This document shows positions 204 to 17,200 of a stretch of 64,000 bases of DNA, in pieces. The first letter of the stretch is position 1; each line of letters starts with the position of its first letter. The stretch comes from Bacteroidaceae bacterium (GTDB taxonomy: Bacteria; Bacteroidota; Bacteroidia; Bacteroidales; Bacteroidaceae), in NCBI GenBank assembly GCA_017547165.1, contig JAFYQK010000002.1, positions 28,085 to 92,084 on the forward strand, read 5' to 3'. Under the pieces are notes generated by a model that was given only the letters and a program-made list of their open reading frames with translations, had not been told where the DNA came from and ran no database searches. The position numbers were made by a program, and so were the translations under genes.

Positions 204-1964
204 ATGTTGGTTTTAAGATTATATATTCGTAAGACAGAAACGCTGCGATTATTGCTGATCTTGCAGATAATATGTGCCTCGGTGTTATGTGGAGCGATAC
301 CAGTTTACGCACAAACTGATGGCAATGTTGTTGCCAAGGTTTCTGTTCTTGATACCATCCCTGAGGATGCAAGGGCCTTGTTCAATAGTTATGTGCGCAA
401 GCCTGATGCAAAGGCTGATTCTATACTCAAGAAATATACTCAAGATAAGTTTATCAAAAGAATAAGTATACATACCAATGCTGTAGATTGGGCAATGCTT
501 ATACCGAATCTGGGCTTGGAGGTTGATATCAAGGACACTCCACGAAACAATTATAGTGTGGCGCTTTTTGGCAAGTTTAATGGCAGAAGTATGCACGGCA
601 AGTTTGTCTTTAATGTCAATGCCGTACGTGTTGAGGCAAGAAAGTATTGGCGCACTGGTAAGTATGGTAAAGCAAAGGAATATTACGACAGTTTTGAAAA
701 ACTATACACTAGTTCGAAAAGTATTTATTATAATGCAGACTCTCTCGCCGGTGTGTCGTATTATGTAGATACATTAAGGGCTAGGATAAAAGAATACGGT
801 ATCACCTCCGATGAATTCGGAAACAAGTTTATACCCTTGCGCGACACTACGGGTATGACTCAAGCAGAAATAGATTCTCTGGATTTTGCTGACGATTCAT
901 TGGGTATAAAGGAAAGCCGATTTCGCAAGTGGTTTTACAACACTTATCATAAGGTGCGTAGAAACGTGATTTCTGGGAGAACCCTTGACAATCCGAGAAA
1001 CTGGCGTGCCTATTATGTTGGTGTCTGGGCTGGAGTAGATAATTGGAGCATCTCGTTTACGGGCAAGGGTAATCAGGGTAATGGCGTCGGTGCAGGTATT
1101 GTGGCAGGCTATACTTTGCCTCTGTTTTCTCAGAAATATCCTCGCGAGGGAAGTCTTGACTTGGATTTCGGATTAGCAGCAGGTTGGAAGGCAGTGAAAT
1201 ACGAGGGTTATAGATACGAAGAAGCTACTCAGCACTATGTGTATGACCCTGCTAGTAGTCATCCGTCGTGGAAGATAGTGCCATATCCTATAATACAGGA
1301 TATTCATGTGAGTCTGGTGTGGAGGTTCCGTGGCATCAAGCATAAGGTGGACAGGTCGTTGATTGATGACTATGAAAAGCAGGTTTCAAAGTACAATGAA
1401 CGTATCAATGCTAAAGACAGAAAGTTCCGTGACGTAAAGGACAGAAGGGAAAGAATTATAAATGCCATTAACCGCAGAACGCATATTATGGCAGACAGTG
1501 CAGAGATTTGGAATGGGTTCCATCGCCGCCGCTTGGAGGCTGCCATAAAAATAAAACCAGATACAATATTTGCAGGACAAGACCAGGATTTGTATTTACT
1601 GCTGTTTAAGGGCGTCAGCAAAGAGGGGCAGGAAAAGTATATTGAACAGGAACTGGACAGGAAGAAGAAGGCCGACAAGCAAGCCCGTAAGGAGCAAGAA
1701 CGTAGAGACAAGGAAAGAAGAAAAGAAGAAAAGAGAAGGCCTAAGGAGCAGAAGAAGGATGAGAGTGCTAATGATACAACCAATAACACTGCGCCCATTA
1801 TTGTAACTCCTGTCGAGAACGCAGACAGTGTGGCAGTGGATGTGCCTCCAGTGGACAGCGTTGAGACAGTGGTGCCGGTTGTTACAGAGTCAAACGACTC
1901 AACATCGGTGAATATGCAATTGGTACTTGGTTATTTAATTCAAAGAAAGAAGTATAGAAATTGA
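204..1964 (+). CDS. DUF3575 domain protein with charged C-terminal extension
   Basis: A 586-residue exported protein. An uncleaved-looking N-terminus is followed by a hydrophobic segment and a signal-peptidase-like site (VYA-QTD, about residue 35). Around residues 90-115 it has the SIHTNAVDWAMLIPNLGLEV type block that marks DUF3575, a Bacteroidetes outer-membrane beta-barrel family usually encoded with fimbrillins. After the barrel-like part comes a strongly charged Lys/Glu/Arg segment (about 480-530), likely helical and periplasmic, then a Thr/Val/Pro-rich tail. The stop overlaps the next start (TGATG), so translation is probably coupled. By context it is an envelope component of the fimbria-like operon. 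The family call is good; the exact role is inferred. Confidence 0.8.
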   Translation: MLVLRLYIRKTETLRLLLILQIICASVLCGAIPVYAQTDGNVVAKVSVLDTIPEDARALFNSYVRKPDAKADSILKKYTQDKFIKRISIHTNAVDWAMLIPNLGLEVDIKDTPRNNYSVALFGKFNGRSMHGKFVFNVNAVRVEARKYWRTGKYGKAKEYYDSFEKLYTSSKSIYYNADSLAGVSYYVDTLRARIKEYGITSDEFGNKFIPLRDTTGMTQAEIDSLDFADDSLGIKESRFRKWFYNTYHKVRRNVISGRTLDNPRNWRAYYVGVWAGVDNWSISFTGKGNQGNGVGAGIVAGYTLPLFSQKYPREGSLDLDFGLAAGWKAVKYEGYRYEEATQHYVYDPASSHPSWKIVPYPIIQDIHVSLVWRFRGIKHKVDRSLIDDYEKQVSKYNERINAKDRKFRDVKDRRERIINAINRRTHIMADSAEIWNGFHRRRLEAAIKIKPDTIFAGQDQDLYLLLFKGVSKEGQEKYIEQELDRKKKADKQARKEQERRDKERRKEEKRRPKEQKKDESANDTTNNTAPIIVTPVENADSVAVDVPPVDSVETVVPVVTESNDSTSVNMQLVLGYLIQRKKYRN

Positions 1965-3298
1965 TGAATCGCATATATATATATATAATAGGTGTGTGTG
2001 CATTGTTGTTGACAGGTATGACAGGATGCAACAATGCTAATATGGACCTATGTTACGATCAGCATCCACATCGTGGGCAATTGATAGTAGAGTATGATTG
2101 GTCGGGTTTGGAATACGAGAAACCCGACAGCATGATAGTTATGGCTGTACGTCCGGTGTTCAGAACCAAGATGGCAAGCAACTGGGCAACTACTGTAGCA
2201 TCAGGCGAGAGCAGATTATATGGTAGACTGATTGCTCCTTTTGGATTGGATTTTTCCAAACCAATGAATTACGAAGAAGGTGATACTGATAGTGAAGTGG
2301 ATGGCGACACCGATAGCGAAGTAGACAGTGACACAGAAATAGGTGTGGATGGTGACGCAGAAGGCGAGGTAGAAGATGGTGCTGATACCGATGTTGATAT
2401 CAGTACGGACCCAGATACAGAAGATGAAGGTAGTAATGTTATCTCTGAAAGGAGAGACTGGCTGTACCTTACATCTGGCGAATGGGAGATTACGTCGTAT
2501 ACATCTAATGAGTCCACATTGGACTTGGCATATGGATATGTTAGCGATGTTATGAATGACAATTCGAAATTCTATTTCCAACTGGAAAAATTTACCGAAT
2601 TACCAGAGAAATATTCTTATTGGTATGACAGAAATGCCTATTCCAGTTGGGTCAGCGTATCGTCAAATTCTACAGTATGTCTGGCGCGCGGCAAAGTTGT
2701 TGTTGACGAGTTTGCCAATACCCAAAAGGATTATAAGGTAGTACTCAGACCAGTATCTGTTGCCCAGAAGGTGAATATCAGCTTTGATGCTGAACTTGTT
2801 GACGATGATATAGAAGTGGACAGCATAGTGGCTGCAATCAGCGGTATTGCTGGAATGATGAACCTTTCTACAATGGAATTGGATATCAATACTACTTATC
2901 AAGGCATATTCAAGACAGAACTGACGGAAAACGCATTGGGACATATTACGTCGAAGAGTACGATACATGTGCCAGGACTTGTGAGAAGTTCTTCTGGATT
3001 GAAGTTGCAAGGACCGGGCATATTGAATGTCAGTGTGTTTGTGAAATATACTGATGACAAGGGACTTAAGCATCAACGCCGTTTGGACGGAACACTCAAC
3101 CTGTATGGCCTTTTGACAGAAACCCCTTCTGTAAAATACGATGAAGATAACAGGGTCGTACAGGCTTGCTCAGTATTGAATCTAGACATAAATAGCAGAA
3201 TGTTGATATCAAAGGATAAGTTGTCAAATGCACATGATGCTATTGACAATTGGGTTGATGAAACAATAATAGATGCAAATACAGATAAATATAATTAG
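1964..3298 (+). CDS. DUF5119-type lipoprotein with acidic repeat insert
   Basis: A 444-residue lipoprotein. I place the start at ATG 1964, overlapping the previous stop, rather than at the TTG three bases upstream. The signal peptide ends in a lipobox (TGMTGC, Cys22). The block after it (DLCYDQHPHRGQLIVEYDW) matches my recollection of DUF5119, a Bacteroidetes family found beside fimbrillin genes. Residues about 103-155 form a degenerate Asp/Glu/Ser/Thr/Val/Gly repeat that splits this domain. The rest is beta-rich and fimbrillin-like. It is probably an accessory or tip/anchor subunit of the surface structure built by this operon; that role is inferred from neighbours only. Confidence 0.7.
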   Translation: MNRIYIYIIGVCALLLTGMTGCNNANMDLCYDQHPHRGQLIVEYDWSGLEYEKPDSMIVMAVRPVFRTKMASNWATTVASGESRLYGRLIAPFGLDFSKPMNYEEGDTDSEVDGDTDSEVDSDTEIGVDGDAEGEVEDGADTDVDISTDPDTEDEGSNVISERRDWLYLTSGEWEITSYTSNESTLDLAYGYVSDVMNDNSKFYFQLEKFTELPEKYSYWYDRNAYSSWVSVSSNSTVCLARGKVVVDEFANTQKDYKVVLRPVSVAQKVNISFDAELVDDDIEVDSIVAAISGIAGMMNLSTMELDINTTYQGIFKTELTENALGHITSKSTIHVPGLVRSSSGLKLQGPGILNVSVFVKYTDDKGLKHQRRLDGTLNLYGLLTETPSVKYDEDNRVVQACSVLNLDINSRMLISKDKLSNAHDAIDNWVDETIIDANTDKYN

Positions 3299-3307
3299 GT
3301 ATAATAT

Positions 3308-4798
3308 ATGATAAGACGATTATTGATATTGTCAGTTGGAATGTGTTTGTTTGCTTCTTGCAACGAATCATTTAACTCTATATATGAGGAGATAGAGGAA
3401 CAGGACCCTAATGTTGTGCCTCCAGAAATAGTGGATGGCAATAAGGTGAACATCCTGCCTACCTTGTCTGACCCATTGTTCAGTATTGATATGACTCGTG
3501 CCTGGACTGGTCCTTTCGGTGATTTCAATGAGGACAAGTCGCATTGGTTCCATACAAGATTCAATGTCTTTGGACTGTTGACTAAAAACGATTTCGGTGG
3601 TTCAGCAAATTATCTGGCTGCACAGCAAGAGGCAGAACAACGTATGCCACATGAGTCCAGAACGTATGGTTTGCTGTGGAATGATACTCTTGGTCTTTCC
3701 GACCAACATGGACATACCATATTCTATGAAGGAAACGAAGAAGATGGCCACGAATCACCAATCATTCGCAAGTACAAGGCTGATGGACCTTTGAACAGGT
3801 ATAAATTCTTCTTATTAGGTACAGATGGTTTAAAGAGCGATTTTCGTGTTGAATCCGATAAGGTGTTAGCGCGACTGGAACTGGATGGCTCTAACGATAT
3901 CATGCATAGTTTTGCCTATCATAGTGACGAAGAGTATTCGAAGGCAGTGCTACAGTTGCCTTCTGATGAAACGACAAAGATGTTTGTGGACGGTGGACAA
4001 AATCATCTATACAACAGATTGTCTGGTAATCGTGGTGTGCACCCCATTTTCAATGTAAATCATCTTATGGGCCGATTTGATATCCGTGTGAAGGGTGGTA
4101 ATCCCGACTTGGATAATTCGTGCGACTTCCTGAAGGTTTTCGTCACAGACGTTGAAATTGAGGCTGCAAAGACAATAGATGTGGTAGTGGCAGACGACAA
4201 ATGGGAACGTGATGGCTACATCGCGCAGTTTAAGAACAATCAACTATTCAACCCCATAGGCGAACCTCAAATGTATCCCTTGACTGTGGTTGCAAACGAG
4301 TTGGGAAACACTCCTTTCACACAGAGCAATCGCGGAGATATGGATTTCGATTTTCTGAAAGCTGAGGCCGATGCATTGGCTGAGAAAATCGGTGAGGAGG
4401 TTATTCCAGAGAAATCGCACTGGGTAAATTCAAGCGAAAGAGACTCGTTATGCAAAACGGTATTGCTGCCTCCGCATCCTACACGTGGTGGACACTTTTA
4501 CTTGAGATTTAAATACAGGTATGTGTTTATGCATTATGATGCAGAAGATGGTAAATATCATATAGGTCAGTCAAAGAATACCATTAACAAATCCTCGTTG
4601 TGGGAGGAATTCTCAGACGTAATTAGAATACCTAACGAGGATATTAATGGCAAAAAAGTAGAATATATAGGTGGCAGAAAATACACTATTGTGATTACGG
4701 TATATGGTAAGTCGGTGGTTATGGTAGATGTGTTGCAACCAACCATGTGGGAGGATGGCGGTGATGTTGAAACCGGAAAGGATGAAATAGAGATTTAA
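3308..4798 (+). CDS. Fimbrillin-like lipoprotein (large)
   Basis: A 496-residue lipoprotein with lipobox LFASC (Cys18). It begins 9 nt after the DUF5119 gene stops. Two features tie it to the fimbrillin superfamily. One is a mid-protein block HPIFNVNHLMGRFDIRVKG at the place where fimbrillins have K-x-EH-hydrophobic-L. The other is the C-terminal MWEDGGDVETG, close to the WTDGGEINVG ending of the fimbrillin at 4846. It is longer than the two fimbrillins downstream, which suits an anchor or tip subunit, but that is inference. I cannot assign a specific Pfam family. Confidence 0.65.
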   Translation: MIRRLLILSVGMCLFASCNESFNSIYEEIEEQDPNVVPPEIVDGNKVNILPTLSDPLFSIDMTRAWTGPFGDFNEDKSHWFHTRFNVFGLLTKNDFGGSANYLAAQQEAEQRMPHESRTYGLLWNDTLGLSDQHGHTIFYEGNEEDGHESPIIRKYKADGPLNRYKFFLLGTDGLKSDFRVESDKVLARLELDGSNDIMHSFAYHSDEEYSKAVLQLPSDETTKMFVDGGQNHLYNRLSGNRGVHPIFNVNHLMGRFDIRVKGGNPDLDNSCDFLKVFVTDVEIEAAKTIDVVVADDKWERDGYIAQFKNNQLFNPIGEPQMYPLTVVANELGNTPFTQSNRGDMDFDFLKAEADALAEKIGEEVIPEKSHWVNSSERDSLCKTVLLPPHPTRGGHFYLRFKYRYVFMHYDAEDGKYHIGQSKNTINKSSLWEEFSDVIRIPNEDINGKKVEYIGGRKYTIVITVYGKSVVMVDVLQPTMWEDGGDVETGKDEIEI

Positions 4799-4845
4799 AA
4801 AATAATGTGTTAAATAATAAATTACTAACTTTTAATTCTTTAATT

Positions 4846-6057
4846 ATGAAAAGTTATTTCTATGCAGCAGGTTTGGCTGTTGCGCTGATGAGCAGTTGCT
4901 CTAATGAGAGTGAGGTTAATCTTCCCGTTGAAGATTTGGAGAAGGACTTGATGCCTGTATCATTGGGCCTGAACATGAGTTCTGCAAATGTTGAAGAGAG
5001 CAGAGGTACTGGTACTGTCGGTGGTACTACCGATGGCGAGAATGTTTGGCGTTATGAAAACCTTTATGTTTTGATGACAACAAGCGACAAGGAAGCTCTG
5101 GAAGACAAGAATGCAGAGTGGGGCTTTACAAGTGTATGCGGTACAGTGTTGAAGGAGCAGTTCGACAATACTTTCTACTCTCGTCCTGAGGAGATTGACC
5201 GCAATGGTACTAAGGTATGGGGCATTAACTACAAGTGCGATCCCAACGAAGGTGCTAACATTAAGTACTATCCTGCTCAGGGTAAGAGCGATTTCTTCGC
5301 ATATTATGTAGACGACGCAGCTAAGGCTGACGCTAAGGGCAATCCCGAGTACAAGATTGAGAACAACCAGATGTATGTTCCCTTTGAAATTACTGGTAGC
5401 CAGGATCTTCTGACCGGTAAGGCTGATGTGGCTCAGACTGGTACTGAGGGTGGTTTCTCTGCCAAGACTGCTCGTGCCAACATCATTCCTCAGCTCAAGA
5501 TGGAGCACATGCTGACACGTCTTACCTTTACTTTGAAGAATGGCAATGCTCATACTGCAAATGTTAAGGTAAAGAGCATTTCTGTTGAGTCAAAGTATCA
5601 GGGTAACTTGTATGTTGCCTATAAGACTGCTCCAGCAGAGGTTATTACTTTCACTGACAAGTATGCAAAGTTGTATCTGAAGCAGGAGGATCCCAACAAC
5701 AATACAAGTTCTTTGGCAACAGGCAAGTGCCCCTTGGTTGACTTTGTACCCATCACCATGAATGGTGTTGATGATGTTGATGCTGGTGAGGCTCTGTTGG
5801 TTTGTCCCGGTGAAACAGTGTACAAGATGTATGTTGAGATGGAGCATGCTATCAATGTAAACGGTGAAGACAAGGTTGAACCCGTTACTTTGCCCCTCGA
5901 CTTGAAGCTGGCAGACGGCAAGGCATTTGAAAAGGGTAAAAGCTATCATGTAAAAGCTACCATCTATGGTCTTGAGGAAATCAAGATTGAAGCTCAGTTG
6001 GAGCAGTGGACCGACGGTGGTGAGATTAATGTAGGTTCTGACAACTTGGGCTACTAA
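4846..6057 (+). CDS. Fimbrillin family protein 1
   Basis: A 403-residue lipoprotein precursor. I chose ATG 4846 because it starts directly on the signal peptide (lipobox LMSSC, Cys18); an ATG 39 bases upstream would add an implausible N-terminus. The fimbrillin hallmarks are QDLLTG followed by LKMEHMLTRLTFTL, and a C-terminal EQWTDGGEINVG strand. In this superfamily (FimA/Mfa-like) the lipidated precursor is trimmed by an Arg-specific protease and polymerises by strand exchange. Here Arg65-like EESRGTG near the N-terminus could serve as such a site. Codon use looks more biased than in its neighbours (many AAG and CCC codons), which suggests high expression and a major structural subunit. Confidence 0.85.
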   Translation: MKSYFYAAGLAVALMSSCSNESEVNLPVEDLEKDLMPVSLGLNMSSANVEESRGTGTVGGTTDGENVWRYENLYVLMTTSDKEALEDKNAEWGFTSVCGTVLKEQFDNTFYSRPEEIDRNGTKVWGINYKCDPNEGANIKYYPAQGKSDFFAYYVDDAAKADAKGNPEYKIENNQMYVPFEITGSQDLLTGKADVAQTGTEGGFSAKTARANIIPQLKMEHMLTRLTFTLKNGNAHTANVKVKSISVESKYQGNLYVAYKTAPAEVITFTDKYAKLYLKQEDPNNNTSSLATGKCPLVDFVPITMNGVDDVDAGEALLVCPGETVYKMYVEMEHAINVNGEDKVEPVTLPLDLKLADGKAFEKGKSYHVKATIYGLEEIKIEAQLEQWTDGGEINVGSDNLGY

Positions 6058-6089: not shown

Positions 6090-7211
6090 ATGAAAATGAC
6101 AAATAAATTGTTTCTTCTTGGTGCAGCTGTTGCATTTTGCGCTTGTTCCAATGAAGAGGTTGTTGCTCCTGAGATAAACGTAGATAACTCAGAAGTTGCA
6201 ATACAGTTGGGCAGTTCAGATGCAGTGACTGTTACACGTGCTGCTGTAACAAACGAGAACAAGGATTTGGCAGGTATCGGTGTATGGTGCTTGGCAAAGG
6301 ACGTTATGCAGGAGAATCTTAATCCTCAGGATATTAAGTGGTTTGGCACTCAGCCCGAGAATTTGACATGCTGTATCATGAAGAATGTGAAGTCTTCTGT
6401 TAAAAATGGCAATGTTAGATGGGATGACCCCAATGCACAGTATTTCTATCCTCAGACTCAGTTCTACAGATATGAGTTCTATGCAAACTATCCTTATACT
6501 ACTAACTTGAATTATACCCAGACTTCTGTTTCTGCCAACTATACCATTGATGGTACTCAGGACCTGATCTGGGGTCGTGCTACAAGCGATGCTGACTATG
6601 CATGGAGTGCAAAGTATTTCCGAGTTAATGGCGGTCAGACAGAGTCAAACCGCCCTAAACTTAAAATGGAGCACTTGTTGACTCGTCTGGTTTTCTTCGT
6701 TCAGCCTGGTGCACAGGTTGAGATAGATGGTGCTACAGAGGATGAGTTGGATTTTACAGCTGCTCGTAGCATGATAATTGATACTTTGCAGATTTGTGAT
6801 GCAAGTACAAGATTGACCATGAATGTTGCCAATTTCAACAGATTGGATATGAGCATTGGCGATCGTTTGATACGTTCTTCAAGTAAGACCGATACCCTTT
6901 ATCTTAAGGATGCTAGCGGTGCAATAGTTAATCCCAAGCAGGTTCCTTCTCTGCCTTCTTTGAAGGAACAGTGGGGTGAGAGCATCATGTTGTTCCCCTC
7001 TAACCAGTACACTATCCGTGTTGTGCTGCATGACAATGCCGGTCACAGATTCTGTTCAGAGATTCCTCTGGTATTGGCAAACCAGCCTAATGGTTTTGAA
7101 AGAGGCAAGAGCTACAACATTACTGTTACCGTACATGGTGCAACATCACCCACATTGGGCGCAGAGTTGACCGACTGGGAAGAGGTTGAAGGACCAAGCT
7201 TGAATCTGTAA
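6090..7211 (+). CDS. Fimbrillin family protein 2
   Basis: A 373-residue lipoprotein precursor (lipobox FCAC, Cys19), 32 nt after the first fimbrillin. It shows the same landmarks: QDLIWG, LKMEHLLTRLVFFV, GFERGKSYNITVTVHG, and a C-terminal TDWEEVEG. An alternative start at codon 3 (ATG 6096) is possible. Sequence between landmarks diverges from the first fimbrillin, so it is a distinct subunit and not a recent duplicate. It is followed by two hairpins (7224-7248 and 7261-7290) before the next gene of the operon. Confidence 0.85.
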   Translation: MKMTNKLFLLGAAVAFCACSNEEVVAPEINVDNSEVAIQLGSSDAVTVTRAAVTNENKDLAGIGVWCLAKDVMQENLNPQDIKWFGTQPENLTCCIMKNVKSSVKNGNVRWDDPNAQYFYPQTQFYRYEFYANYPYTTNLNYTQTSVSANYTIDGTQDLIWGRATSDADYAWSAKYFRVNGGQTESNRPKLKMEHLLTRLVFFVQPGAQVEIDGATEDELDFTAARSMIIDTLQICDASTRLTMNVANFNRLDMSIGDRLIRSSSKTDTLYLKDASGAIVNPKQVPSLPSLKEQWGESIMLFPSNQYTIRVVLHDNAGHRFCSEIPLVLANQPNGFERGKSYNITVTVHGATSPTLGAELTDWEEVEGPSLNL

Positions 7212-7325: not shown

Positions 7326-7865
7326 ATGATGAAGAAGATTATAGTTGCAATCTTGTTGATAGCAGTTGGTACAACAGTCAAGGCTCAAATGTTGGCAGTA
7401 AAGACCAATGCCTTGATGGATGTCGCCCTAGTGCCGAACTTAGGTTTTGAGGTGGCAACAGGCAGTCGTACTTCTATTTGTGCTAATGGTTTTGCCAGTT
7501 GGAATATATATGGCATGAAGGCAAAGACTTATGGATTCATACCAGAATTCCGTTACTGGCTCTCGGGAAATACTTTCTCGAAATTGTTTCTTGGAGCAGG
7601 CGCAATGCTTGCACACTATGATTTGACGGCATCGAAAACAAATTATGTTGGTTCAACATATGGAGTAGGCTTGAATATGGGATACGACTATTGGTTGTCT
7701 AAGCGTATATCTGTAGAGTTTCATGCCGGTGTAGGTGTTTTTTATTACCACCATGCACGTACAAGGGAGGACGATATTTTACCAGAAGTTCCCAAATACA
7801 ATGATAGGGGTTGGACAGTACTACCATATCAGTTAGGAATTAGTTTTGTTTACATTATCAAATGA
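7326..7865 (+). CDS. DUF3575 domain protein (short)
   Basis: A 179-residue protein with a signal peptide (cleavage near VKA-QML). The whole mature part is one DUF3575 barrel: it opens with AVKTNALMDVALVPNLGFEV, has alternating aromatic beta-strands such as FIPEFRYWLSG, and ends in an outer-membrane-like strand (YQLGISFVYIIK). It is the single-domain relative of the protein at 204-1964. Its stop overlaps the start of the giant barrel gene (ATGA, 7862-7865), so the two are translationally coupled and probably act together in the outer membrane. Confidence 0.85.
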   Translation: MMKKIIVAILLIAVGTTVKAQMLAVKTNALMDVALVPNLGFEVATGSRTSICANGFASWNIYGMKAKTYGFIPEFRYWLSGNTFSKLFLGAGAMLAHYDLTASKTNYVGSTYGVGLNMGYDYWLSKRISVEFHAGVGVFYYHHARTREDDILPEVPKYNDRGWTVLPYQLGISFVYIIK

Positions 7866-10800
7866 TGTTAGGTATTTTGCACGATATTAAACATTGGTGT
7901 TCTGCCAGGATTTCTGGTAGAATTGGATGTCTCATATATATAACTGTCTGGTCATCTCTGTCGCTTTCTGCTCAAACAGATTCGACTGTAGTGGCAGATC
8001 CCGAGGATAATATAGAATATAGAACAATATCATATGCCCCGGAATCAGTTTGGGAACAGAAAAAATATACTCCACGCGAGAATGATACTTTGTTTTTTAA
8101 CTCTCCAATATGGAGACGCTTTTATGTTGGAGTTGGCGGAGGTATTCAGGGACTGTCGGACAATATAGGTTCGGTAAGTAATGCTTCATTTAATGCTTTT
8201 GTAGGCTACAAGTTTACCCCCATACATAGTCTCAGATTGCATGGTAGTATGATTAACTATACTTATGCAACAAACAAACCTGCTGCAAAAAGTATAGGTA
8301 TGGGCATTGACTATGTGGCAAATTTAACTAACTTTGCCTTAGGTTATAATCCTGCGAGAATGTTTGATGTAAGTTCTGTGGTGGGATTAGGAGTAAGGTA
8401 TAACAGTAAGGTGCTGGGTAGTCGCATTGCTCCATATGCTCATCTAGGTTTGTCTGCCAATCTGCATCTTAACAGCAATTTCTCGCTTTTCCTGGAACCT
8501 TATGTTGGCTTGCAGAGAAGCAACGAAGTGCTTTTTGGCAGAGAGAATCCTGAAAAGTGGAATTTGATGTATGGTTTCAGCGGTGGTTTGCAGCTTGCCT
8601 TGAATAGTCGTAAGAACAACTATGCTGAGGCTGATAGCATTTATCGCAAATTCTTTTTTGACAGTAGCATAGGTGTGGCGCTTCCCTTGGGGGCAAGCGA
8701 AATGATGCATAGTAGCGGTACTAGTTATCAAATGGCATTGGGTATGTGGCTTAACCCAATGCTGGGTTTACGTATTGGTGCTCATGGCCAAAGTTCTTAT
8801 TGGAGTACAGGAATGACAACTGTCAACGGTGTTCCCGTGCGTAGTTCTAAACCACAGGCAATTATGGGCGGTCGTGCAGAACTTATGTTGAACCCTTTGA
8901 ATTTTTCAAAAAAATGGAGGGATCAAAAGGATGGGCATGATTTTGCATTGAATGTCCTGATGGGTGCCGACTTTGGTTGGAATATGAAGAGTGGCATGGC
9001 AAATACCACATCTGGTCCGTTCAGATGTTACTATTATGGCATGACTGGTGCCTTGCAATTTCAATATCGTATTGCTAAGCCGGGTACATATATTTACATA
9101 GAACCAAGATATCTGGCTTCTATGTACCATGTTCCATACCAGAATACCCACAATAGTCTGTTGACAGTCGAAAACAGTATGTCGGTTAATGTCGGCACGC
9201 GTATCTATATGACACACCCCACACTTACTGGTTCCGGAAATGATGAGTTTACACCTCATTGGTGGGCTGGCGTAGACGTTGGTGGCGTAAAGTGGCAGAG
9301 AGTGTCAATGATGACTACTGGCGGTCTGGGTATAAATCCATCAGTAGGCTTCTCTCTAGGCTATGATTGGAAACCTTTGCTTTCTCTCCGTGGACAGGTC
9401 GCATACCAGAGAATGTACAATACACATACCAGTGGATATGCAGGTTATGCAGAGGGTGCTCTGAAAAGTGGATATGGATTATGGGATTCTTCGTACGACG
9501 CATTGGATGTACGCTTATCCTATATGCTTAATTTGAATAATCTGTTGCAAGGATATGATGCTGAACGCAGATTTAACCTGTGGTTGACAGCAGGTCCTAC
9601 TTTGAGCTATATCTTCGGTGAAAATAATAAATGGGTAGATGGTCAGAAGCAGAGTGCTCCCAAACTGTCCTTGTTGAAACTAAGTGATTCTCGTAAGGGA
9701 AAGGCATCGCCAGGAATGTCTGCATCATTGATGGCGGCATTGCGTGTGGCAAAGAATCTGGAGGTTACCGCAGAGGCTATGGGACAGTATAACTTCCTGC
9801 TTGGAGCAGCTCCCGAAACTTCTTCACGCTTGAATAATATAAAGTATGGATTTGCCTTAGGTACTAGATACCATTTTATGCCAGGCGTAGACCAACTCAA
9901 GGCATACAGAGGTCTTGACGAGAACAGATTCTTCTTTGATAGCAATGTGGCTTGGGCAACAAGTGCGATGACCAACTCTTTCCGCTTGGGTGGAAGTCAA
10001 TATGCTGCTTCTTTGGGTATGTGGTTTAATCCTGTAGTTGGTGCACGTCTGGGTATTAATGTGCAGACGATGCAGAATTCCACAGGTACCGTTGATATTT
10101 TAGGAGCAAAGATGCGTCGTTCTTATGCCATGGCTTTGGGCGGGGCACGTGCCGAATTGATGCTGAATCCTTTGAATTTCATTAGCAGTTGGCGTAATAG
10201 AGAGGGAGGCAATGACTTTGAAGTGAATATGTTGGTTGGTGCCGACTTAGGTGGCATAACAAAATCTGGAGGTTCATTCAAGGGAGATAGGCTTCGTATG
10301 TATTATGGCTGGACAAGTGCTATGCAGTTCTTGTATCGAATAAACTCTCCTGGAACTTATATCTTTGTCGAACCAAGAGTAATGTCTGCGAAATACAATT
10401 CGCTGTATGGCAATACTGGAGTGCAGACCAAGACAAATGATTATCTTTTCTCTTTAGGCGTAGGTACAAGAGTTTATTTGACTAATCCCTCGTTCAATCC
10501 AGCCAATTCCAATGATTTCGTGTCACATTGGTGGGCAGGTCTTGATTTTGGTGGCGTAAAGACACAACATAAATCAACCTTGCACAAACAGGGAGGCATC
10601 GGTTTTAATCCAGCAGTTTCAATGTCTTGGGGTTATGATTGGAAACCTTTGGCATCGTTCCGTGCACAACTTGCATATCAGAGGCTTACAGAGCATATGG
10701 TTTCTTCGTATTCTGGATTCAATGCCAAAGGAAACAAGACTACTGGTACTGGTTTGTGGGAGAATGGGTATAATGTCATGGACCTAAGACTGGGATACAT

Positions 10801-12463
10801 GCTGAATATAAATAATTTCCTGCAGGGATACAATGCAGATCGCAAGTTCAACCTGTGGTTGATAGCAGGTCCTACATTGTCATGGATTATGAGTGAGGAT
10901 AACAAGTGGAACGAGGATCAGAAGACAGCAATGCTACCTGTCACAGACCTGAAACTTTCCAAGTCTTATGCCGGACATGTTTCACCTGCACTAACTGGTT
11001 CCATGATGGCATCATTGAATGTTGCAAAGAATGTTGATGTCACAGCAGAAGTGCTTGGACAGTATAACTTTATCAGAAATACAAATCCTGGCGACCACTC
11101 TTTGATAAATAACATAAAATATGGTGTTTCTGTCGGTGCGAGATACCATTTCGGACAGGATGCGTTGAAGAACCTCTTCTCTGATTTTTCTTCAAAACCA
11201 TGGCATAAGGGACTTTTCGTTGATGCTGCATATGGTTGGGCAATTCCTACGGATGGTGGACTAGGAATGCATGGAAGTGGTAGTAGCATGCAAATTTCTA
11301 TGGGATATTGGTTCAATAGTCTCATTGGTGCGAAGATAGGAGTTGTAGGGCAGCAGACATATTGGGATAAGACGCAGGTTGCTGCAGTAAAGGAACCCCT
11401 AAGTGGAACTCAGGTGCATGCTCCTTATTCTGTATATAAGACGCAACTTATGCTTGGCGGTCGCGCAGAATTGATGCTTAATCCTCTCAACCTGATTTCC
11501 TCAAGAAGAAATGCAGAGGATGCACCACGTTGGGATATGAATATGTCATTGGGTATGAACTTTGGCGGTATGGTTAAGGTACAGGGGCTTACTCGTGGAT
11601 ATGTCGGTTTTACCAGTGCATTGACCGCATTGTTCCGTTTGTCGAAAACAACACAGATATATTTGGAACCAAGATATGATGTGTTCAATTATACAGCATA
11701 TAATGATGCCTTCAAATATGACCAATCTTTTTCGGATAAAGTGTTTACAATTAGTGTTGGTACGCGTATTACCCGTCCTGTAGGAGAGTCAAAGGATAGC
11801 ATGCGTCCTAAGGATAAGGAAAAGATGGCGCATCGTGGTTTCTGGGCGGGCGCTTCATTGGGTGGAAGTAAAATGATACAGACCTTACGCAATGGCAACG
11901 GCGGTGTGGGCATACAACCATCAATGGGCTTGACTGCAGGTTATGACTTTGACAGGTTGAATTCTGTTCGTGCTCACATATCTTATGACATCCACAGCCG
12001 TTATCGCACAGATCAACCCTATTCAGTTGTTACACCAATGGGCATGCAAATGCGATATAAGGGTGCAATGAACAGCTCTTACCACCAGCTTGATCTACGT
12101 CTGCTGTATATGCTGAACGTTACAAACATGTGGACTGGCTATGATAAGAGAAATGTCTTTAATATGTATTTTGAAATTGGCCCTTCGTTCTCGTCTATCG
12201 TGTCTGAGAGCAATACCCTTGCTGAAGGAGAATATCAAGGCGGACAAGACTTCAAGTACATCGGAAAACAATATGCAGGAAATAAATCAATGGGATTGGC
12301 TATGGGTATTATGATGGCATTAAAATTGACACCAAAATGGGACTTGACTTCCGAACTGATGGGACAGTTCCACTTTAATCGTCAATATATGCCAGAGAAT
12401 TATGCTAGATTTGTTAATGCCATAAAGATGAATTTCTCTGTTGGAACAAGATATAACTTTTAG
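7862..12463 (+). CDS. Giant outer-membrane protein with seven tandem beta-barrel-like domains
   Basis: A 1533-residue exported protein (signal cleavage near SLSA-QTD). I read it as one unique barrel-like domain (about 82-250) followed by three copies of a two-domain unit. The A domains start near 264, 690 and 1118. They share W[LF]NP/WFNS-x-x-G-x-[RK][LI]G, then R-A-E-L-M-L-N-P-L-N, then a closing VGTR strand. The B domains start near 466, 889 and 1327. They share [HG][WF]WAG-x-x-x-GG, then SFGYDWKP-like and LRLxYMLN, then a closing strand ending [GA][TA/R]RYHF or TRYNF. The last domain ends in Phe at the C-terminus, as outer-membrane barrels do. Each domain is about 180-215 residues, a size that fits an 8-12-strand barrel. 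No plug, TPR or OmpA peptidoglycan-binding domain is visible. By context it serves the fimbria-like system, perhaps in export or anchoring. The barrel reading and function are inference. Confidence 0.75.
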   Translation: MMLGILHDIKHWCSARISGRIGCLIYITVWSSLSLSAQTDSTVVADPEDNIEYRTISYAPESVWEQKKYTPRENDTLFFNSPIWRRFYVGVGGGIQGLSDNIGSVSNASFNAFVGYKFTPIHSLRLHGSMINYTYATNKPAAKSIGMGIDYVANLTNFALGYNPARMFDVSSVVGLGVRYNSKVLGSRIAPYAHLGLSANLHLNSNFSLFLEPYVGLQRSNEVLFGRENPEKWNLMYGFSGGLQLALNSRKNNYAEADSIYRKFFFDSSIGVALPLGASEMMHSSGTSYQMALGMWLNPMLGLRIGAHGQSSYWSTGMTTVNGVPVRSSKPQAIMGGRAELMLNPLNFSKKWRDQKDGHDFALNVLMGADFGWNMKSGMANTTSGPFRCYYYGMTGALQFQYRIAKPGTYIYIEPRYLASMYHVPYQNTHNSLLTVENSMSVNVGTRIYMTHPTLTGSGNDEFTPHWWAGVDVGGVKWQRVSMMTTGGLGINPSVGFSLGYDWKPLLSLRGQVAYQRMYNTHTSGYAGYAEGALKSGYGLWDSSYDALDVRLSYMLNLNNLLQGYDAERRFNLWLTAGPTLSYIFGENNKWVDGQKQSAPKLSLLKLSDSRKGKASPGMSASLMAALRVAKNLEVTAEAMGQYNFLLGAAPETSSRLNNIKYGFALGTRYHFMPGVDQLKAYRGLDENRFFFDSNVAWATSAMTNSFRLGGSQYAASLGMWFNPVVGARLGINVQTMQNSTGTVDILGAKMRRSYAMALGGARAELMLNPLNFISSWRNREGGNDFEVNMLVGADLGGITKSGGSFKGDRLRMYYGWTSAMQFLYRINSPGTYIFVEPRVMSAKYNSLYGNTGVQTKTNDYLFSLGVGTRVYLTNPSFNPANSNDFVSHWWAGLDFGGVKTQHKSTLHKQGGIGFNPAVSMSWGYDWKPLASFRAQLAYQRLTEHMVSSYSGFNAKGNKTTGTGLWENGYNVMDLRLGYMLNINNFLQGYNADRKFNLWLIAGPTLSWIMSEDNKWNEDQKTAMLPVTDLKLSKSYAGHVSPALTGSMMASLNVAKNVDVTAEVLGQYNFIRNTNPGDHSLINNIKYGVSVGARYHFGQDALKNLFSDFSSKPWHKGLFVDAAYGWAIPTDGGLGMHGSGSSMQISMGYWFNSLIGAKIGVVGQQTYWDKTQVAAVKEPLSGTQVHAPYSVYKTQLMLGGRAELMLNPLNLISSRRNAEDAPRWDMNMSLGMNFGGMVKVQGLTRGYVGFTSALTALFRLSKTTQIYLEPRYDVFNYTAYNDAFKYDQSFSDKVFTISVGTRITRPVGESKDSMRPKDKEKMAHRGFWAGASLGGSKMIQTLRNGNGGVGIQPSMGLTAGYDFDRLNSVRAHISYDIHSRYRTDQPYSVVTPMGMQMRYKGAMNSSYHQLDLRLLYMLNVTNMWTGYDKRNVFNMYFEIGPSFSSIVSESNTLAEGEYQGGQDFKYIGKQYAGNKSMGLAMGIMMALKLTPKWDLTSELMGQFHFNRQYMPENYARFVNAIKMNFSVGTRYNF

Positions 12464-12466
12464 TGC

Positions 12467-13558
12467 ATGAAGATGAGAAGAAATTTTGTATATATTGTGC
12501 TTGCTTTATTATCATTGCTTACAGCTTGTTCGGATAATGAAAATGTTCTTGACACGCAAATTGGTCAGGCGAAAATACCTATGCGGTTTAGTCTGGGCGA
12601 TTTGGTGAATATGACTACACGAGGAACAGGGGAGGAACTTGGCTATACTACTTTTGAACCAGGACAGAGTGTAGGTGTCTTCGTTATGTATGAGCGAGAT
12701 TTGGACTCTTTAAGAGAGGGTTCTGATTATCACAACATCTCTTATTACTATGATAATGTAGAATGTCGCATTGATGAGAGTGGCAATCTGCATCCAAAAA
12801 GTATAGAGGAGATGTTCTATCCGATGGGACTGGATTCCAAAATTGCTGTTTTTGCCTATGCTCCATACGATTCAACAATGACAAGGAAGAGACTATTGAA
12901 TTCGCAGGATACTATTTTTGTCTCAAGTAATCAGAGTATAATCAGAGAGACCCAAAATAACGACCTTATTCTTGGTACGCCCTTGCAAGGCAATCCTTTA
13001 TTGCGACCAGCTATAGATGGAACCTCAGGTTCATTCCCGACGGCAAGTATAAAGCTTAATTTTCGTCATCAGAGAAGTAGGGTAGTGCTTAATGTAACAT
13101 TGGATGGAGGGTCAGAGTTTATGGATGGCAAGGATTTCCTGTTGATAGATACAATGTATGTTTATGCTGAAAATGTACCTATGTGTGCCCCGTCTGGTTG
13201 CAAATTAGATGATACAATGAATAATTTTGCACCAGCTGACATATTGCAGAATGATACTATGCTGATGGCATGTTTTACCGATATTGATTTACTTAATACA
13301 CAGAAAAAGACTTTTACCTCAATCGGTATTGTTTTGCCTTCGAATGCACCCGTAGAATTGTCGTTTCGTATAGAGTTTGTTACTGCACAAAAGCGTTCAA
13401 AAGTACGTCGCAAAGCAGTAGTGCCAGTTATGTTTGAACGTGGAGCATCTCTAAACTTTAAGACAACAATTTCGGAGAGTATGACTGAGGAAGATGACGA
13501 GTCAACAGACTATGATGAAGTGCCGGTAGTTCCTGATACTCCTGGCATTCCAGCTTAA
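12467..13558 (+). CDS. Fimbrillin-like lipoprotein (distal gene of operon)
   Basis: A 363-residue lipoprotein (lipobox LLTAC, Cys21) starting 3 nt after the giant barrel gene. It has fimbrillin-type features: an N-terminal strand IPMRFSLG followed by TTRGTG (a candidate Arg processing site), then NNDLILGT and IKLNFRHQRSRVVLNVTL in the place of the EHxLxRL block. It lacks the usual C-terminal W-x-DGG strand and ends in an acidic, proline-rich tail (about 335-363). Loss of the donor-strand ending would fit a terminal (tip or anchor) subunit, but this is inference. Confidence 0.7.
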   Translation: MKMRRNFVYIVLALLSLLTACSDNENVLDTQIGQAKIPMRFSLGDLVNMTTRGTGEELGYTTFEPGQSVGVFVMYERDLDSLREGSDYHNISYYYDNVECRIDESGNLHPKSIEEMFYPMGLDSKIAVFAYAPYDSTMTRKRLLNSQDTIFVSSNQSIIRETQNNDLILGTPLQGNPLLRPAIDGTSGSFPTASIKLNFRHQRSRVVLNVTLDGGSEFMDGKDFLLIDTMYVYAENVPMCAPSGCKLDDTMNNFAPADILQNDTMLMACFTDIDLLNTQKKTFTSIGIVLPSNAPVELSFRIEFVTAQKRSKVRRKAVVPVMFERGASLNFKTTISESMTEEDDESTDYDEVPVVPDTPGIPA

Positions 13559-14240: not shown

Positions 14241-17200
14241 TTACTTTAATGTTTGTTCAGCGAAATAGGTGCTGAGAAGTTCTTTACGGTCATAGTAATA
14301 CAATAGGGATATAGTCTTTTCCATTGTATGTCTCCACTGGTATTCCGTAAAGGCTGAACCACGACGGCGCTCGGGACACAGTGTTTCTATCCATTCCATC
14401 CACTCAAGAGAGCGGGAGAGCATATCCCTGGCAAGTGTATCGGCTTCTGCATAGCGCCCTGTGTGGTAGAGGCAACGTAGCATAGAGAGGGCGGCTGCGT
14501 CGTATGGAACAACTTGCTGAGGCATTTCCTTTTGCCATTTGCGTACAACGGCCATGGCACGTTCATTGTCGCCTTGTTCAAGCAGGGCATCTATCAGGGT
14601 TGCCATCTTGTGCTGATGCCCGTATGCCATCTTCCTCACGTCATAATCGGCATACACATTACCGGCAGACAAACCTCCGTAGGAGAAGTTCTCCATGATG
14701 TTCTCGTACAGGCGTTCCACATTTACACGTGTTTCAGTTTCGGAAGTTTCAGAAGGGACGATACGATACAGCAGGCCCTCCAGCACAAGGTGAGGTTTCA
14801 GGTATGGCCTTTCATCTATGTTCATGGACGTTGTCAGGTACAAAGGTCTGGCTTCATCGCCATTTGCGAGAAGCTGGAGTATCAGCAAGTCACTCTTCAG
14901 AAGCATGTCCATGCCAGCAAAGGAAAGAGGCGTCTTCTTTCCCGACCTCTGCATAACAAAAGCCGAGTCCGTGGGAATGCAACGTATGTCCAGCGTTTCC
15001 CATTCGTCCTCTCGTCCGTAGGCAAGTGCCTTCACATATTGTCGCAGACGTACATCTTCCTCGCTCATACCGTCCGTACGGTTGAACACCCAATGCCTCA
15101 GGATGTTTGCCATGTCAAAGGGGTCCTCGCCAAGAATTCTCTTCAGCGTATGTGATTCCTGCCGGTACAATGCCAGCACCCTATCGTGCAATTCAGGTTC
15201 TATACGCACGGCATCATTGTTGCCATAACTGTAGTCTTCGGTTTCCCATCCCAATGGCAAGGCAGGAGAATCGTAGGCAGGACGTAGCATCTGGTCAATG
15301 TACCAATCGGCACTGGCATAAGACAAGTTGCATACCCTTGCGTCCGTGCGCTTCCCTTCCACTTCCTGCATGTACCAAAGGGGGAAGGTGTCGTTATCGC
15401 CATTACAGAAGATGATGGGTTTGCCCTCCTTAGGTGCGCTCTTCAAGTAGTTTTGACCAAAGTCGCGACAAGTGTATCGTCCGCTACGGTCGTGGTCGTC
15501 CCAAGTTTGGCATCCCATCTGTATGGGAACAAGCAGGCAGAGAAGCACGCCAATAATCACCGATAACCGCTCTCCAAACCTCAACCGCCTCAAGACCGAC
15601 ACCACCGCACCCGTGCCAAGTCCCACCCAAATGCAGAAAGCATAGAAGGAACCTGCATAGGAATAATCTCTTTCCCTGGCCTGCAGGGGTGTTTGGTTCA
15701 GGTACAGAACTATGGCTATTCCCGTCATAAAGAACAACCAGAAGGTAATGAGAGACTGGTTTCTGCCCAACTCGCCCTTCCTTCTTTGCCACCAGATGCC
15801 CAAGATACCCAAGAGCAATGGCAAGGCATAATAGACATTGCGTCCTTTATTTTCTTCCAAGTCGGATGGCAGTTTGTTCATATCACACCCCAAAAGCAAA
15901 CCGTCTATGACATCTATGCCCGTTATCCAGTTGCCGTGCTCCGTTTCGCCGTTGCCTGGAATATCATTCTGCCTGCCCACGAAGTTCCACAGGAAGTACC
16001 TTATATACATATAATATAATTGATAGGAGACGAAGAAACCGATGTTTTCCTTCATCGTAGGACCTTTCACACCACCCATCCACTGCTCGTAAGCCCGGGC
16101 ATGACGCGAAGAGTGCATACGTGGGAAAAGCATATTTTGGTCGTAAACATACTCTATCTTCTTGCCCACATCCATGTAGCGCCCCGTCTTGTCCGACTTG
16201 CGGTAGATTGTCTCACCCTCCTTACGTTTGGCAACCATAAAGTCGCCCTTACGCTCGTACGCAGGCTTTGCCTTGTAGGTAGGTCCATAGAACAGGGGAT
16301 GGTCCCCGTACTGCTCTCTATTGAGATAGCGCTTCAAGGCAAAGACATCTTCCGGAGAATTCTCGTCCATAGGCGGATTGGCGGAGGAACGGACAAGGAT
16401 GACGCCATAGCAACTGAATCCCACAAGTATCATGGTCACACAAGACAACACAAGCCTCCTTGTTCCATGCCAACGGTTCAATCCCCAAACAATTAGCACT
16501 GAAAGCAACAAGATAAAGCCTGCAAGTCCAGAATTGAAAGGAAGTCCCAGCAGGTTAACAGCCAAAAGTTCCGCCCTGCCAACCAGCCACAACACACCGG
16601 GGACAAGCCCATAGAGTATGCCGCCGAGCAAAATAAAACTAACCAACAGAGCCTTGAACACTCCCCACATCGTTGTCTTCTTCGTCTTCCTGAAATAGTA
16701 TACCAGCACCATGGCAGGTATGCAAAGGAGGTTCAGCAGATGCACACCTATGGAAAGACCTATCAGATATGATATCAGCAATATCCAACGGTTAGAGCTA
16801 GGACTATCTACCTCATCATCCCACTTGAGAATTAACCAGAATACCAGTGCCGTAAGAAAACAGGAATAGGCATAAACCTCTGCTTCCACGGCAGAGTACC
16901 AGAAGGAGTCGCTGAACATGCAGGCAAAGGCACCTACCATGGCGGAACCTTCTATCAGGAGGAGGTCCTGCACCCGTCCCACTCTGCCATATCCACACAG
17001 CAGGCGACGCATTAGATGCGATATCGTCCAAAACAGAAGCATTATGCAACCGGCACTGAGCAAGGCAGACATGATGTTCACCATATATGCCACTTGAGAT
17101 GGGTCGGAAGCAAACTGAGAGAACAGATTAGCCGTAAGCATGAAAAACGGTGCGCCTGGCGGATGACCTATCTCCAGCTTATAAGCAGAAATAATGAACT

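Follow-up and report, generated by a model that had tools for sequence, protein, structure and literature searches.

A predicted row of OmpA-type barrels in one polypeptide, encoded with DUF3575 and fimbrillin-like proteins in Bacteroidaceae

To our knowledge, the barrels of the bacterial outer membrane nearly always occur one to a polypeptide chain. Multi-barrel outer-membrane proteins, the class of GfcD and YjbH, have been described (PMC8592465, PMC9603273, PMC11494523), and GfcD comprises two barrels (12 and 13 strands) with a periplasmic domain between them. Here we analyze a predicted protein that shares with this class the presence of more than one barrel per polypeptide and differs from GfcD in that its family carries two to 13 OmpA-type barrels joined by short linkers. 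It is encoded at positions 7862-12463, forward strand, of a 64,000-nucleotide stretch of a Bacteroidaceae bacterium (GCA_017547165.1, contig JAFYQK010000002.1, positions 28,085 to 92,084), hereafter the window. Gene order, repeats, a barrel fold in those domains that were modelled, relatedness to OmpA barrels and co-inheritance with two neighbors, a DUF3575 gene and the gene for a protein that we call X, were computed, and with moderate confidence we interpret the covalent row of seven OmpA-type barrels, together with the DUF3575 protein and X, as an outer-membrane platform that supports fimbrillin-like lipoproteins in Bacteroidaceae.

Three described systems invite comparison. The repeat types align over their full length with the OmpA-type barrel and have the same strand number and fold; unlike OmpA, the window chain has seven barrels and no C-terminal OmpA domain, a degenerate relative of which is located in the partner X. 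In Myxococcus, the periplasmic TPR protein GltC is a binding partner of the OmpA-like barrels GltA and GltB, whose entry into the membrane is aided by the outer-membrane lipoprotein CglC (PMC4488436); this make-up may be likened to that of barrels, DUF3575 protein and X, with the difference that the Myxococcus barrels are single, come from separate genes and belong to a gliding motor. In an Mfa-type locus of B. thetaiotaomicron, BT4233-4234 form a DUF3575-DUF3868 pair (PMC10434189). The profile of X matches the OmpA-like part of DUF3868 proteins, several of which adjoin DUF3575 genes, whereas X is longer (678-959 residues) and is joined by a multi-barrel gene.

Seven predicted barrels in one chain

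The gene begins with ATG and encodes 1533 residues arranged as signal peptide, tail and the domains D0-A1-B1-A2-B2-A3-B3. The signal peptide, recognized by eye (7862-7975; residues 1 to about 38, ending in SLSLSAQ), contains no lipobox, and a short tail motif, YAPESVWEQKKY (8033-8068; residues 58-69), precedes the first barrel. D0 (8093-8617; residues 78-252), A1 (8639-9214; 260-451), B1 (9245-9886; 462-675), A2 (9911-10483; 684-874) and B2 (10514-11155; 885-1098) each have eight strands in a structural model, long ones in the two B domains; A3 (11195-11776; 1112-1305) and B3 (11825-12463; 1322-1533, with C-terminal VGTRYNF) are assigned by homology to A1/A2 and B1/B2. The original prediction, made from the sequence alone, of a first domain followed by a two-domain unit repeated three times is thus borne out as D0-(A-B)3: the RAELMLNPLN block occurs exactly three times, once in each A copy (residues 338, 763 and 1201), and the B copies open with WAG (468, 891 and 1328) and close with RYHF (669 and 1094) or RYNF (1530). 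The VGTR strand assigned to the A copies is present in all of them (444, 867 and 1299) and also once outside, at 1527, and the aromatic end postulated for closing strands throughout the chain holds for the B copies, not for the A copies (VGTRIYM, VGTRVYL, VGTRITR) or D0 (GGLQLAL). The pattern G-x-x-hydrophobic-x-hydrophobic is found at six of the seven domain ends, a number reached in none of 5000 shuffles; together with the signal peptide it suggests that the chain resides in the outer membrane.

The A copies are 39-46% identical to each other (z 18.8-27.2 against shuffles) and the B copies 35-54% (z 20.7-43.9); the comparison of A with B gave z 1.0-4.6. The first domain, described at the outset as unique, is not unrelated to the others: at the family level, the D, A and B profiles can be aligned to one another along their whole length (profile-profile probability 99.9, E-values 5e-30 to 3e-36).

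The homology to OmpA is not reached by a single-sequence scan: Pfam gave no hit in the 1533-residue chain, which, having no match to PF00691, the C-terminal peptidoglycan-binding domain, falls outside the OmpA family proper, and the likeness to CglE is confined to a sub-threshold match of the NCBIfam model (42.3 against an equivalog cut-off of 70 bits) that does not place the chain in that family. When a profile built from 32 D and B domains was compared with PDB sequences, ten matched (E 9e-4 to 0.56), all of them outer-membrane barrels with OmpA the best; the A profile found no barrel there and one flagellar protein (E 0.14). The same domain hidden Markov models (HMMs) also match single proteins of about 360-420 residues in genomes of Bacteroidaceae. 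Four of the five that were scanned carry an OmpA C-terminal domain (the fifth had no hit), and in three of these four the barrel family OMP_b-brl was detected, once above the cut-off (E 4e-10) and twice just below it. Against the barrel part of 21 such single proteins the D, A and B profiles scored probabilities of 99.8, 99.6 and 99.9 over 169-179 columns, with 7.5 and 0.1 for the DUF3575 and fimbrillin controls; the singles were chosen by matching the repeats, so that this comparison is not blind, while their OmpA annotation is independent. Kinship of the repeats with DUF3575, a further candidate, was rejected, as no PF12099 hit was found in them and the profile-profile scores are low (9.6, 0.6 and 1.7 for D, A and B). 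By the measure of sequence homology, then, each domain is a homolog of the OmpA barrel.

An AlphaFold2 model spanning D0-A1-B1-A2-B2 shows a barrel fold with eight strands in each domain rather than a solenoid or soluble fold, and structure comparison found that four of the five resemble closed eight-stranded barrels; more than one complete barrel per polypeptide is accordingly present, five modelled and two by homology, on which the predicted fold of A3 and B3 rests. Couplings computed by the mean-field method on 321 rows, 300 of them repeat domains and 21 singles, gave mean z values of 1.09-3.77 for the seven neighboring hairpins. All seven exceed the 95% background (0.96) and five exceed the 99% background (1.27), in strand windows set once the couplings had been seen. 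The coupling of the first strand to the last was 0.82 (background P 0.11), and barrel closure is not established from coupling alone. Across 236 consecutive domain pairs, the final strand of a domain scored 0.38 with the opening strand of its successor, which gives no sign of merging; some other inter-domain bands reach 1.69 and are given no interpretation. The alternative of fewer, larger barrels is unsupported by either the model or the couplings, and an usher, with its single large barrel and plug, is not what is seen in a chain with eight long strands per domain and no Pfam hit. A scan for amphipathic strands, which returned 11-13 peaks per domain, was too coarse for counting strands and was not used. 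Conservation is lowest in all four predicted outer loops (0.10-0.15) and higher in strands and periplasmic turns (0.23-0.44). Profiles, model and coevolution agree, and each domain appears to be its own eight-stranded up-and-down barrel. Because the gaps between domains are short (8-15 residues in the window protein, median 10 over 178 linkers), the barrels could not drift apart and the chain would have to form a compact row or cluster.

The tail motif just before the first barrel reads NALDYxLQKR, by eye, in many relatives, and a loose pattern of it fits 48 of 64 sequences (the window protein and relatives). It looks like a periplasmic docking peptide. The motif is kept even where the mature protein seems to begin with it.

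Barrel number and growth by pairs

Of the 201 genomes searched within the family, 82 contain some match, short single-barrel ones included, and 60 stretches were fetched, with long proteins in L035-L075 and single-barrel ones in L076-L094. Iterative domain HMMs were applied to a first set of 48 proteins (the long ones of L035-L075, five more from related loci and that of the window); five of the 48 are truncated where their contigs stop and were excluded. The 43 complete proteins contain 13 (one protein), nine (one), seven (eight), five (14), four (two), three (16) or two (one) domains; in a second set, which comprises 20 loci and draws 11 of these from outside the family but within the same order, the 19 complete proteins contain eight (two), seven (one), six (three), five (seven), four (two) or three (four). 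Homologs with different repeat counts therefore exist and range from two to 13 barrels per chain.

The number of domains is odd in 40 of 43 proteins of the first set, 12 of 19 of the second and 52 of 62 overall. A general odd-number rule fails in the second set, where even counts of 8, 8, 6, 6, 6, 4 and 4 occur. When the proteins were split by HMM label, a division made after the counts had been seen and among rows that are not independent (L059/L060/L063, L058/L065 and L037/L101 are near-duplicates), those with an A-type domain were odd in 40 of 41 cases (34/35 and 6/6; the exception, L053, has two domains) and those with D labels only in 12 of 21 (6/8 and 6/13). This bias, present in the former and not in the latter, suggests that pairwise growth is customary in the A/B branch but not throughout the family. 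A tree was built from the first set's 203 domains. For 202 of them the closest domain from a different protein has the same position type (first, even or odd), and for 35 the nearest relative lies in the same chain. The 13-barrel chain has parallel relations, A6-A10 with B7-B11 and A8-A12 with B9-B13, as expected if pairs duplicated. The chain probably began as D-A-B and was lengthened by duplication of A-B pairs.

Barrel number must have changed at least 12 times when mapped onto a tree of 36 X proteins, a quickly made one with long branches. Within the window's own clade there are five barrels in L097 and seven in L095 (the same locus as L035) and L098; L096 and L099 run off their contigs. 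In the barrel protein of L051, B domains 3 and 5 are 97% identical and their A partners 61%, which suggests recent duplication or gene conversion within the chain.

A cassette with DUF3575 and X

In the window, the 179-residue DUF3575 protein (7326-7865, forward strand; PF12099, E 9.9e-37; signal peptide by eye) is encoded immediately before the barrel chain, its gene end overlapping the start of the barrel gene by four bases (gap -4). Among 41 genomes selected for long barrel proteins, a hand count found 40 in which a DUF3575 gene shares the contig with the barrel gene at a distance of about 7 kb or less, and the exception (G076) has short contigs. X usually lies between the DUF3575 and barrel genes; it was recorded one or two genes upstream of the barrel in 39 of 48 proteins (43 rows, four of them second fetches), is present beside L075, and stands at the operon front in three loci of the window's clade (the window, L035 and L098). 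The contigs of L096, L097 and L099 stop short of where X could be seen, in L071 a piece of it is found at the contig edge, and in L072, with four barrels and DUF3575 nearby, no readable X was seen and the gene may be broken. In the second set X is within the fetched stretch of all 20 loci. At the level of the order, a long X match, DUF3575 and barrel occur together in 12 of 14 genomes, which were selected for long frames, frames of about 600-870 residues in further genomes lying outside this count. The other two (G205 and G323) have no DUF3575 and a partial X match whose frame has the same length as that of the barrel match; these frames of 820-827 residues, seemingly with barrel and OmpA-like match in one protein, are probably a long form of OmpA. 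Of seven genomes that lack a barrel match, six contain only the OmpA-like portion of X, in other proteins, some of them DUF3868 proteins, and one contains nothing.

The central domain of X is OmpA-like: the Pfam OmpA match (E 3.9e-5) is below the cut-off, and the profile-profile probability against OmpA-type C-terminal parts is 90.7. The DUF3575 gene and X are the constant neighbors of the barrel gene, and this company, with the OmpA-like domain of X, suggests one envelope complex. DUF3575, X and barrel genes are doubled close together in one genome each time in L044 (two barrel genes) and G188 (L038 and L075).

A possible platform for fimbrillin-like lipoproteins

Of 47 barrel genes, 21 have a fimbrillin-type gene no more than 9 kb away, in fetched sequence and with profiles from the window's genes, a count lowered by contig ends and by the reach of such local profiles, and Pfam Mfa_like_1 is wholly absent from six of the 41 genomes. 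The notion that homologs always lie beside fimbrillins is therefore rejected; these are frequent, not constant, partners. On a Bacteroides finegoldii plasmid the order is three fimbrillins, DUF3575, a hypothetical protein that from its size and place is a putative X, and a barrel relative; barrel proteins carry the label 'hypothetical' on the two plasmids for which annotated records were seen. At the window locus the proposed coupling is confirmed, DUF3575 and three Mfa_like_1 genes adjoining the barrel gene. Five lipoproteins are recognized in the operon by their lipobox, three of them Mfa_like_1, and the operon thus has the Mfa/FimA-type lipoproteins of a type V fimbrial operon, the barrel protein itself being no fimbrillin.

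In view of these fimbrillin lipoproteins, and of P. gingivalis fimbriae having been described without chaperone and usher (PMC8313007), we favor a platform or anchor, one half of the initial suggestion of a new kind of anchor or export port. Seven separate, closed, eight-stranded OmpA-type barrels would sit side by side on linkers of 8-15 residues, within the membrane, with variable loops outside and X below, the latter possibly touching peptidoglycan. With the DUF3575 protein and an exported X they would make up a physical complex that, in Bacteroidaceae, would most likely hold or display those fimbrillin-like lipoproteins of the cell surface that their own operon encodes. What weighs against this picture is that the OmpA-like domain of X reads ASPEG at the position compared with what we take to be the peptidoglycan-binding aspartate of OmpA, which makes binding by X doubtful. 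Eight-stranded OmpA-type barrels are not wide pores, and for this reason a port, the other half of the suggestion, is unlikely. More tentatively, the chain might be a raft built to length by changes in A-B pairs and, with DUF3575 and X, the missing base of Bacteroidales fimbrillin-like fibers; if so, it would fix their spacing, number or cell-wall anchorage.

An array of surface adhesins or receptors, in which many variable loops give avidity, copy number tunes it and fimbrillins are mere operon companions, seems to us unlikely: the poorly conserved outer loops, the repeated changes of barrel number on the X tree and the inconstancy of fimbrillins fit it, but variable loops are usual for any outer-membrane barrel, and a fixed complex is indicated by how closely the chain is inherited together with DUF3575 and X. 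We give still less credence to a device for envelope stability, an OmpA-like link between membrane and wall split over barrel chain and X, with no special fimbrial role. The homologies of the barrels to OmpA-type barrels and of the central domain of X to OmpA C-terminal domains would be accommodated by it, as would the many relatives without recognized fimbrillins; however, a separate match in a frame of about 400 residues, which has the length of an ordinary OmpA, is present in addition to the long protein in G341 and G364, the presumed binding motif of X is altered, and lipoproteins abound in those operons of Bacteroidaceae that were seen. A secretion port for fimbrillins made of fewer, larger barrels (for instance A and B as one of 16 strands) is highly improbable, for although short linkers and A-B amplification could hint at a two-domain unit, the eight long strands per domain, the four modelled domains like closed barrels, the missing coupling from last to next first strand, the end-to-end alignment of every domain type with a stand-alone barrel and the description of P. 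gingivalis fimbriae without chaperone and usher all speak against it.

Three features seem to be novel: a graded series of two to 13 OmpA-type barrels, the growth by A-B pairs within one part of the family, and the DUF3575-X cassette. No earlier report of this barrel family was found in titles and abstract beginnings among the matches listed; Solan et al. 2021, who reportedly found many multi-barrels, mostly with eight-stranded barrels, lay outside this comparison. A small barrel that is repeated up to 13 times, multiplies by pairs in part of its family and is linked to a single gene cassette across several families within the order offers a natural series for how the barrel-assembly machinery handles long multi-barrel substrates, and bears on purposeful barrel clustering and on what holds usher-less surface lipoproteins.

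The remaining genes of the window operon, all on the forward strand, encode another protein of the DUF3575 type, the second in the operon, which contains an insertion and has a charged tail at its C-terminus (204-1964; PF12099, E 8.8e-11), a lipoprotein with a lipobox and a weak DUF5119 match below the cut-off (1961-3298; PF17145, E 1.1e-4), a lipoprotein akin to the operon's fimbrillins by iterated local profiles, with no Pfam hit (3308-4798), and three fimbrillin-like Mfa_like_1 lipoproteins with lipoboxes, at 4807-6057 (E 1.5e-11), at 6090-7211 (E 7.3e-15) and, downstream of the barrel gene, at 12467-13558 (E 1.6e-12). The X gene at the operon front lies about 2.4 kb before the window (L106 15077-17602, equivalent to G000 C1 23176-25701). 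Immediately upstream of it on genome contig C1 is a cluster of DUF4493 and PCMD proteins (L106:1779-14441), possibly a second surface-fiber set. As to an invertible promoter before the operon, only two hairpins and weaker distant pairs were seen, a recombination site not having been searched for. The two hairpins, at L106:14453-14505 and 14606-14689, lie between the DUF4493/PCMD cluster and X and suggest a terminator or regulatory element.
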